NCBI GenBank assembly: GCA_024278345.1
Contig: JAJRTK010000282.1
Location: 1-5,910 of the forward strand
Source of the DNA: a bacterium
GTDB taxonomy: Bacteria > CSSED10-310 > JAJRTK01
Direction: 5' to 3'
Length of the DNA stretch: 5,910 bases
In this document: positions 1,025 to 5,698 of the stretch, one piece after another
How positions within the stretch are numbered: position 1 is the first letter of the stretch
How the letters are laid out: each line of letters opens with the position of its first letter
Position numbers and translations under genes: made by a program
The notes under the pieces: generated by a model
What the model was told of the DNA's origin: nothing
Databases searched by the model: none
What the model saw: only the letters and a program-made list of their open reading frames with translations

Positions 1025-4000
1025 CTAGGATTCGTCTGGTTTTGTGCGGTCTTTCGTGCGGGTGAACCTCTGTTTCACTGCTAGCGCCAGCAAGAGAACC
1101 AGGCCTCCGAGCCACGCGAAGACGATGGAGGCCGCTGGAACCGGTCGAGGGCGGAGGATCGGCACTTCCCACAATTCCCGACCGGCATTTTTCGCATTGG
1201 CCGTCAAGAAGAGCCGGTCGCCCAGCCGGTAGAGATCCCTGGGGACCGCCGACGCCGGTCCTGGCTCCAGGTCCGCGTAGGGGCCGGTTCCCTCGGGCGT
1301 TCCGTCGCTGTGCCAGAGTTCCTCTCCGGTCTTGGGTTCCCAGGCTAGAAAGAAGAGCCCACCGGATCCGTCGGGAACCCAGGGATCGTGATCGACCCGG
1401 AGTTCCGCCTCCGGCCACCAGGCGAAGAGGTCGATGGCGTGGCCGCCGGTCGGGGGAATGGCGACGAGGCGTGCCACCCAGGTGCCGCTGGCGCTGGCGG
1501 CATAGATCGGTCCGCTCCGATCCACCGTGTACTGTGGCTCCCCGCAGTCATAGTCCAGAGCGCTTGGCATCGTGCCGAATTGCCGCGTGCCCTCGGGCGT
1601 TCCATCGCTGACGATCAACCTGTTTCCCACCAGGAAGATTACTCGTCCGGAGTTTCGGAGGAAACCTTCCACCTGAGAAAAACAACCGTCTTTGAGCTGC
1701 CCCTCCAGCAGGAGCGTGGTTCTCCCGGAGCCTGGATCGATGACCTCGAGTTCGTAGTCGCAACTACTAACGAGAATCGCCTGGAACCATTGACCGTTCT
1801 CCTGGACGGTTGCCCTTCCGGAATGACAGTAGATCCACCGTTTCCGGGTATCTCCACGTGGAGTTTGGGCCGCCCCGTCGCCGGATGCACGGCGGTCCCT
1901 CCTCCCGATCATGGGATTCCTGTCCGGTTTTCCCCGACTCTGGCGGCGTCTTCGGGTAACCTGGTGGGACGTGGGGACTGGAAACGTTCCTTGGGCCGTG
2001 CCATCGGTTCTCCAGGGTTCAGAAGAAAAAAAGGCCAGGAAGTAGAGAATGCCGTCCACGGCTTGAAAAGATCGGGGAGTAGAGCTGTAAGGGCTGGGAG
2101 TCACACCGTCCAGTGAAGTGAGGTCCTTCAGGAGACGGGTTCCAAGAGTCGTTCCGTCGGTCACCCAGGGTTCCCGCCCGTGATCCGGATCCCACGCCGA
2201 AAAGAAGATCCGGGATTTCCACCGGTAGAAATCCCGGCACGAAGAAGACCAGGGACCAGGGACGATGTCCTTCAGGAGGCGCGTTCCCCGCTTCGTTCCG
2301 TCGGTGATCCACGGTTCAGCGCCGTGCTCCGGATCGTTGTGGACGAAGAGAAAGCGGTTTCCCAGGGCGATCCCGCCCGTGGGCGGGGCTGCGGAAGGGG
2401 CGGAGGCTGCCCGGTTCTCCGCCGGGTGGCGGCGCTCCGGCGTGGCGTTCCCGGACGGCTGGCCCGCGCTCGGGGAGGGCGGAGCCGGGCAAGGGGCGGA
2501 GGGCTCCCGGTTCTCCGGTGGGTGGTGGCGCTTGGGGGGGGCGTTCCCGGAAGTCGATGCCGCCTCCATGGCATGGGGCGCTGCGGGAGAGGCGGAAGGC
2601 GGTCGGCTTGCCGCCGAGGGAGCCTCGCCGCCGGCGATGCTTTCCGGTCCCGGAAGGCGCGTGGATCTGGGAGGGGTCTCGGGGAGAAGGCATCGCGTTC
2701 CCCGTGGCGTTCCGTCGGTCGTCCAGAGGCACCAGCCCTCGTCGGAGGTCCAACCGCGGAAGTAACAGCGGTCTCCCTCACACCCCCGCCATGGCTGGAC
2801 CGGTGGTTCGTCGTAGCCGGATTCGAGTTTCGCCACGACGGAGGAGAGCCTTTCCAGGCCGCAGCGGGGGCTCCACTGCCAGAGGCCGTCGATGGAGCGG
2901 GCAGGTTGCCACCAGCGCCACTCCTTGACGAAAAACATGAGGCGCTGTCTCCAGCCGAGATACCCGAGGGCGACGCCGAAGGCGCTCTCCGTTTGCCGGG
3001 ACGAGGCCCACACCTTCCGGGTGGCCCTCGCCGCGCCGTCGTAGCACCAGATGGCCCCTAGTCCTCCCTTCCCGCGAGTCCAGAAGCACGCTCCGCCCTT
3101 CACGGGGGCCACGGCCTCTCCCACCTCGACCGCGGGATCGACCGTTTCCCACAGCTTTTCCGCCTTTCCCGGCTGGCCTCCCGAACGCCACAGGCCGGTC
3201 CGCCCGGGGCGCTCCGCCGCCAGCCAGTACAGCCAGCGCCCAGACCCCGCCAGGCCGTGGGGATTCGAACTCCCACGACCGGGCCGGAGGTCCACCAGCC
3301 GGTGCGTTCCACGCGTCGTGCCGTCGCTCACGTACACTTCCCGGCCGAAAACCCCGTCGGCCGCCGTGAAATAGAGGCGGTTCGCCGTCGCCGTCAGCTC
3401 CTTAGGGCGCGATCCCTGGGGCCCAGGCCTCACGTCGGCGACGAGCCGCGTCCCCTCTTCCCGGCCGTCGGTCCGCCAGAGTTCCCGGCCCAGACCCGCC
3501 CCCGCCGCCAAGAAATAGACCTTGCCCCCCAGCCTCTGGAAATCCCGAGGAGCCGACGAATCCGGGCCGGGAAGGAGATCCGACACGCGCTCCGTCTCCT
3601 CCCGCGTGCCGTCGGTCCGGTAGAGTTCATCCCCCCCGTATCCCCAGGCGGGAAAGAACAACCACCGGCCCAGGGATGCCCCAGTGACCCGGCCCAGGCC
3701 CGGCTCGGGGACTCCAAGGTGCAGGATCAGGACCTCCTTGTCGAGGCCCTGGAACAGCGCCAGATTGGACCACGATTTGTGGGTGTAGTCGGTGGAATAC
3801 CAGTTTTCGAACTGCATGAGGCTGTTTCTGGACCAAGTCGATGTCCATCGGAGAAAGCTCCCGCAAAGGTCTCCGAACCAGCAGTCCTGGTCCGACAGGT
3901 AGGATTCCCCGATCCTGTTGCCCGACTCGTCGAAACACTCGACGTAGAAGAGATGGCTCCCGCTGCACAGGGCGCCCCGGTAGGAGAAGAGTTCTTGCGC

Positions 4001-4686: not shown

Positions 4687-5091
4687 TCAGCTACGGCAAT
4701 ATCCGCGCCACAAGAGGCTCCCGGCCGTGGAGGAGAGGGTTTCCCTCTGTTGGGGTCGCGGAGCGAACTCGAGCATGCCGTACTCTATGATTTCGGGGTC
4801 CCAGATGAACTCGACTTGATCTCGGAGGCTCCGGGCCAGGGCGCCGACATCCGCCGGTAAGATGTAAAAGACTCCGCGGCAGTTGGGGCTTTCTGCAGTG
4901 CCGATGGGCAGATCGACGAAGAACTGGAAGAGGATGCCGTTCCGGTTGACCTTGGCCAGAGGGTCAGTGACCCGGGATTCCAGGTTCCGGCGAAACGCTG
5001 GGGTTTCCTTCGTATCGCGGAAGAACAGCGAGGGCGCCAGGCGGTGTCACAGGCCGGTGGAGAGAGGCTTGTCGTGTTCTTTCGTTGGCAT
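4687..5091 (-). pseudogene. Uncharacterised gene interrupted by an in-frame TGA at codon 15
   Basis: An ATG at 5091 opens a 14-codon frame (MPTKEHDKPLSTGL), then TGA at 5049-5047. The same frame then stays open for 119 more codons to a TGA at 4689-4687. The downstream part looks truly coding: 33 of the first 40 codons end in G or C, and the peptide is balanced and globular-looking (for example NGILFQFFVDLPIG, CRGVFYILPADVGALARSL, VEFIWDPEIIEYGMLEF). Between the TGA and the Met about 90 codons later there is no in-frame ATG or GTG, so restart would need a rare codon such as the CTG three codons after the stop. A GGAAAG lies about 8 bases before the ATG. It sits 37 bases after the preceding gene and 23 before the next. 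Family not recognised; no membrane segment or signal peptide seen. The other minus-strand frame here encodes Ser-rich low complexity and looks like a shadow. Most likely a nonsense mutation (for example CGA to TGA); sequencing error or recoding remain possible. Confidence 0.72.
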
Positions 5092-5128
5092 TTTGGTTCT
5101 TTCCGGTTCACCACTTCAGGCTGGCCTA

Positions 5129-5698
5129 CTACCTTTCCGATTGTTCCGGCCTTTCGTAGAGAACCTCTGGCACGCCCTGTCTGGCTCGGTCAAAGAGTGC
5201 TCCCACAAGACCGCCCACCATGAGGCTACTGCCCACGGCTTTGGCCCTGGCCTCGTCAGAGCGTTCCTCTGGAGGATCGAAAAGAAGAGCCGAAGCACCA
5301 CCCAGTACCAGGGCACCCAGGAGAAGCCCCCGAAGCCGACCCTTGCGGCCGAGCTCGATTCGCTGGACTTGCTTGAAACGCAGCGTCCGCCGCCGCCCGC
5401 CACGACGGGAGATCTCGAACCAGGAATCCTCGATCCTCTTGATCCGACCCTCCACCACGGCTTTGCCACTTCCCGCTAGGTAGATTCTCACGTGGCGACG
5501 CCGCGCCTTCACCAAGATCTCTCGCAACCTCTCCACCGCCGGAGCGGCGGAATCATGTTCACCGGATTTCCCGAAGGAATCCCCGGACCCAGCGAAAGGA
5601 ACGGCCAGAAAGAGCAGGGTCAGGGCGAGGGCCATGTATCGAGGAGACAGGATCCGCCCGGCTCCAGCGGGGTCGCCGTAAGAACGCCGTTGGGGCAC
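5129..5698 (-). CDS. Small envelope protein: beta-rich Sm/SH3-like domain plus two glycine-rich helices
   Basis: This 189-residue product has a hydrophobic segment at about 23-36 (MALALTLLFLAVPFAG), probably a signal peptide. A basic, beta-rich stretch follows at about 58-118, in which VRIYLAGSGKAVVEGRIKRI and then RTLRFKQVQRIEL follow the alternating pattern of small Sm/SH3-like barrels. Two Gly-rich hydrophobic helices at about 123-140 and 155-169 resemble a glycine-zipper hairpin. I recall this layout from many uncharacterised proteins of Acidobacteriota and related groups, but no named family is assigned. The start is uncertain: the GTG at 5698 gives a basic region before the hydrophobic segment, while the ATG at 5635 would start directly at it; neither has a good ribosome binding site. 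It is the first gene of the apparent cluster. Its role is unknown; the topology suggests the inner membrane or periplasm. Confidence 0.72.
   Translation of the reverse strand: MPQRRSYGDPAGAGRILSPRYMALALTLLFLAVPFAGSGDSFGKSGEHDSAAPAVERLREILVKARRRHVRIYLAGSGKAVVEGRIKRIEDSWFEISRRGGRRRTLRFKQVQRIELGRKGRLRGLLLGALVLGGASALLFDPPEERSDEARAKAVGSSLMVGGLVGALFDRARQGVPEVLYERPEQSER

Follow-up and report, generated by a model that had tools for sequence, protein, structure and literature searches.

The segment at positions 4687-5091 on the minus strand is very probably a pseudogene: judging from its sequence, it would be a decaying duplicate of a small gene of the VOC superfamily, bearing a nonsense codon, frameshifted and partly deleted, of which the genome retains an intact paralogue. 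The lesions, the homology and the paralogue are all directly observed, and they strongly suggest that this copy, lying in the 5,910-nt stretch of DNA that was analysed (hereafter, the window), has lost its function. A pseudogene of this type is ordinary and already known in kind.

Translation of the segment starts at an ATG at 5091 and proceeds through 14 sense codons, a TGA (5049-5047) and 119 further sense codons to a closing TGA at 4689-4687, 23 bases before the ATG (4663) of the next gene, exactly as laid out in the preliminary description. The product reads MPTKEHDKPLSTGL, stop, HRLAPSLFFRDTKETPAFRRNLESRVTDPLAKVNRNGILFQFFVDLPIGTAESPNCRGVFYILPADVGALARSLRDQVEFIWDPEIIEYGMLEFAPRPQQRETLSSTAGSLLWRGYCRS, stop, with a 119-residue part that begins HRLAPSLFF and ends GYCRS. 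After the first TGA, the ORF listing contains a single in-frame restart, ATG 4776, which would encode 29 aa. Two shadow ORFs, which use other frames (4785-5114 minus and 4883-5479 plus), were set aside.

An intact paralogue and its relatives

The 119-aa stretch did not match any Pfam family, and neither the other genomes searched nor the genome_contigs scan yielded a relative. Within its own genome, it matched positions 12585-12911 of contig C159 (E = 1.1e-25). This locus, G000:C159:12537-12953, is an unbroken 139-aa frame (MPGKKNEMTLSTGLGKRLVPSLLVRDMEATLLFYQQLGFQVTGSHPPGEPPFWAEV...YGMLEFAIRDPNGYILAFTEPADQGEMS) and belongs to Pfam PF00903 (Glyoxalase/Bleomycin resistance protein/Dioxygenase; 41.3 bits, 2.4e-10); bleomycin-resistance and other VOC structures gave weak matches. 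The paralogue passes the PF00903 gathering score of 20.6 bits, whereas the window copy, translated with X at the stop, matched no Pfam family at E up to 1, and the VOC family was revealed only with the intact paralogue as query. The same query retrieved eight near full-length relatives from genome_contigs (49-62% identity), in Gemmatimonadota, Acidobacteria, Planctomycetota and alphaproteobacterial records, but no clear relative among seven other genomes of the same phylum. The paralogue and these eight homologues from other genomes are the nine intact sequences of the protein alignment used below.

With the paralogue as query, the match to the window copy extended across the TGA into the 14-codon leader (Table 1); about 20 nt upstream are also shared, and the two copies have the same start and Shine-Dalgarno-like context. 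As judged from these alignments, the homology of the segment is more than chance and reflects real coding ancestry. It also bears out two proposals of the preliminary description, namely that the whole stretch originated as one gene and that this gene is interrupted by the TGA as a nonsense codon. Unlike the paralogue, the window copy is broken by an in-frame TGA, lacks 24 nt and is shifted in frame by a 2-nt deletion.

Because an intact paralogue persists in the genome, we infer that the window copy probably arose by duplication within the lineage (native) rather than by separate acquisition. Disabled native duplications are one of three pseudogene origins, and bacterial pseudogenes have been defined by a homology match together with more than one disablement, either a frameshift or a premature stop (Genome Biol. 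2004;5:R64, PMC522871). The window copy is no different in kind from the pseudogenes in that study, showing significant homology, a premature stop and a frameshift, plus an internal deletion and relaxed constraint, and a native-duplication origin fits.

Lesions and relaxed constraint

Comparison of the window copy with the nine intact sequences located three lesions (Table 1). The TGA aligned to a GGA codon of the paralogue. The segment missing in lesion 2 was present in nine of the nine intact sequences, and the eight homologues all retain both this segment and the C-terminal motif. The gap of lesion 3 is supported by 14/17 matching bases when it is introduced versus 4/17 when it is not (binomial p about 3e-6), and moves the conserved C-terminus, RDPNGY..AFTEP, into another frame. 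In the +1 frame, the sequence after this lesion reads ...LRDPNRGK, in which LRDPN is recognizable and similarity then stops, indicating that the listed tail PRPQQRETLSSTAGSLLWRGYCRS, the last ~24 residues of the product in the preliminary description, is out-of-frame sequence. Likewise, of the motifs of the closest subfamily, FYxxLGF is replaced by FRRNLES in the window copy, and RDP(N/D)GY..AF is represented by an RDPN that occurs only out of frame, with no similarity beyond it.

Table 1. Positions of the putative pseudogene, its lesions and its upstream leader in the window
Feature	Position	Strand	Basis
VOC (glyoxalase/bleomycin-resistance-like) pseudogene, putative	4687..5091	-	51% identity to intact paralogue; E 2.9e-30 with the paralogue as query, 1 TGA inside
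Lesion 1, in-frame TGA in N-terminal leader ahead of VOC fold	5047..5049	-	closest homologues: Gly
Lesion 2, 24-nt (8-codon) deletion site between VTG and W.E, mid-domain; position approximate	4947..4970	-	DNA and protein alignments
Lesion 3, 2-nt deletion, TTCGC--TCCGCGA, about 4763; position approximate	4758..4768	-	DNA alignment
Upstream leader, paralogue-like (GGAAAGAACCAAAATG vs AGGAAGAACCGACATG), with Shine-Dalgarno-like stretch	5092..5112	-	DNA alignment

Of the 36 alignment columns that do not vary among the nine intact sequences, 17 are broken in the window copy, as compared with 0-5 for each intact sequence in leave-one-out analyses. In a relative-rate test on amino acids, with homologue L007 as the outgroup, the window copy had accumulated 24 unique changes and the paralogue 5 (chi-square 12.4). 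Substitutions between both copies were distributed as 28:30:49 over the three codon positions, with a dN/dS of about 0.38. This enrichment in third positions would be expected of a gene that still worked during some of the period after the two copies diverged; it suggests that coding constraint shaped part of the divergence, and fits a once-functional gene.

These results do not agree with the preliminary description in two respects. It had seen no other visible damage, which is contradicted by the 24-nt gap, the 2-nt frameshift and the lost invariant residues, and it had considered the TGA to be either a recent mutation or read through. The additional lesions imply that the decay is not very recent, and an internal deletion, a frameshift ruining the conserved C-terminus and a faster loss of conserved residues speak against both options. 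From the sequence alone, the long frame with third-position G/C bias after the TGA seemed undamaged, and one intact paralogue and eight homologues were enough to expose two more lesions. We propose that translation from 5091 would end at the UGA after 14 residues, via release factor RF2, and that, beyond the UGA, the 8-codon deletion and the 2-nt frameshift would abolish the fold together with the conserved C-terminal strand. The long open frame may persist because the frameshift and later changes opened no further stops in this G+C-rich sequence.

The assembly is of metagenome type and fragmented (550 contigs, 88% complete), and the TGA and the frameshift could be assembly or consensus errors in a gene that is intact in the organism. 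We consider this very improbable, because several independent errors within 400 bases would be required, and a 24-nt in-frame deletion and 17 lost invariant residues are atypical of sequencing error; an error at the TGA alone would leave the other lesions unexplained.

Tests for recoding of the UGA codon

The preliminary description regarded selenocysteine (Sec) as conceivable and pointed to the sel genes and to the residue that homologues carry at the TGA position. We found that the Sec machinery is encoded in the genome, and recoding of the TGA therefore had to be tested. The genome contains selA (C270:9395-10684; 477.6 bits, over the cut-off), a selB candidate (C109:9127-10191, also over the cut-off) and a tRNA-Sec with anticodon TCA (G000:C479:12097-12190). 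The window copy, with an in-frame UGA in such a genome, in this respect resembles bacterial selenoprotein genes, whose hallmarks are conserved Cys/Sec pairs and a hairpin (bSECIS) whose apical loop lies 16-37 nt downstream of the UGA; this loop starts with a G, and the next base is often G or U (PMC13188914). A hairpin with an 8-nt loop occurs 27 nt after the UGA in the window copy, a distance permitted by the bSECIS model (PMC13188914). However, its loop starts with CGC, lacking the G then G/U, and 25 of 200 shuffled sequences folded equally well (z -1.29), so the hairpin is not clearly better than chance. The TGA position itself lies in the variable N-terminal leader, occupied by Gly in most close homologues and otherwise by Arg, Cys and other residues; Cys appears at the aligned position in one of nine homologues (L010), and there is no conserved Cys or Cys/Sec pair. 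A Sec-containing product would be ruined in any case by the downstream deletion and broken frame. We consequently judge it extremely unlikely that this UGA encodes selenocysteine and the gene a selenoprotein, and the suggestion remains unsupported in spite of the encoded machinery. Very likely, the organism does make selenoproteins, though not from the TGA at 5049-5047.

That the paralogue, L007, L008, L011 and others have Gly opposite the TGA would also be compatible with a variant genetic code that assigns UGA to an amino acid (e.g. Gly, as in code 25). Nevertheless, RF2 (prfB) is encoded in the genome (491.7 bits) and TGA serves as the stop codon of the paralogue itself, indicating that TGA is a stop in this genome. 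Moreover, no internal stops were found in the prfB, selA and selB candidates or in the paralogue, and, to our knowledge, the known code-25 genomes are unlike this G+C-rich, 6-Mb genome. The chance that a variant code operates here is thus practically nil. Equally hard to credit as the selenoprotein is a diverged, VOC-derived frame whose UGA is translated, by Sec insertion or by a suppressor, to give a rearranged protein with a new C-terminus. Comparison with intact relatives should be the first step for any in-frame TGA, also when the genome encodes Sec machinery.

Neighbouring genes and repeats

The putative pseudogene is placed between two genes on the same strand. The gene starting at ATG 4663 encodes a 1212-aa ELWxxDGT-repeat protein (TIGR04534, 380.6 bits), and the upstream gene (5129-5698, minus strand) a product of ~189 aa that has a hydrophobic segment at its N terminus and a DUF6897 match below the threshold. 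This placement, together with a Shine-Dalgarno-like leader that is still similar to that of the paralogue, would be consistent with a remnant active in the cluster as RNA or as a short peptide, such as the 14-aa leader or the 29-aa product from ATG 4776. Yet the segment showed no Rfam match, no promoter or terminator pattern and no sign of constraint beyond its ancestry, making such an activity very improbable. No tRNA was found in the window.

Within the 1212-aa ORF, an Arg-rich stretch (VTRRRRQSRGKPDRNPMIGRRDRRASGDGAAQTPRGDTRKRW; 1860-1975, minus strand) disrupts the repeats and lacks the excess of G/C at third positions, suggesting either compensating indels or an insert of foreign origin. 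At 2381-2572, two tandem 96-nt units that are 73% alike encode a Pro/Ser-rich linker of the same gene.

The window also contains two copies, 98% identical, of an element of ~154-157 bp (2-158 and 849-1005), bounded by terminal inverted repeats (GGGACCTATCA...TGATAGGTCCC) and without an evident gene. Further copies were found at L003:1853-2002, L057:2828-2981 and in most of the loci L037-L056. Copies are 68-100% alike, many of them lie at contig ends, and 151 occurrences of the end motif TTTGATAGGTCCC were counted in the genome versus 0 in a reversed control; this looks like a MITE-type family that fragments the assembly. One copy, at L043:1501-1737, shows partial tandem amplification of an internal ~34 nt. 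Separately, two tandem units of ~110 nt starting with ACCATGAAAGTACATGGTTAAATCCATCTTCGACGG were observed at the end of contig C159, near the intact paralogue (L003:6008-6202).
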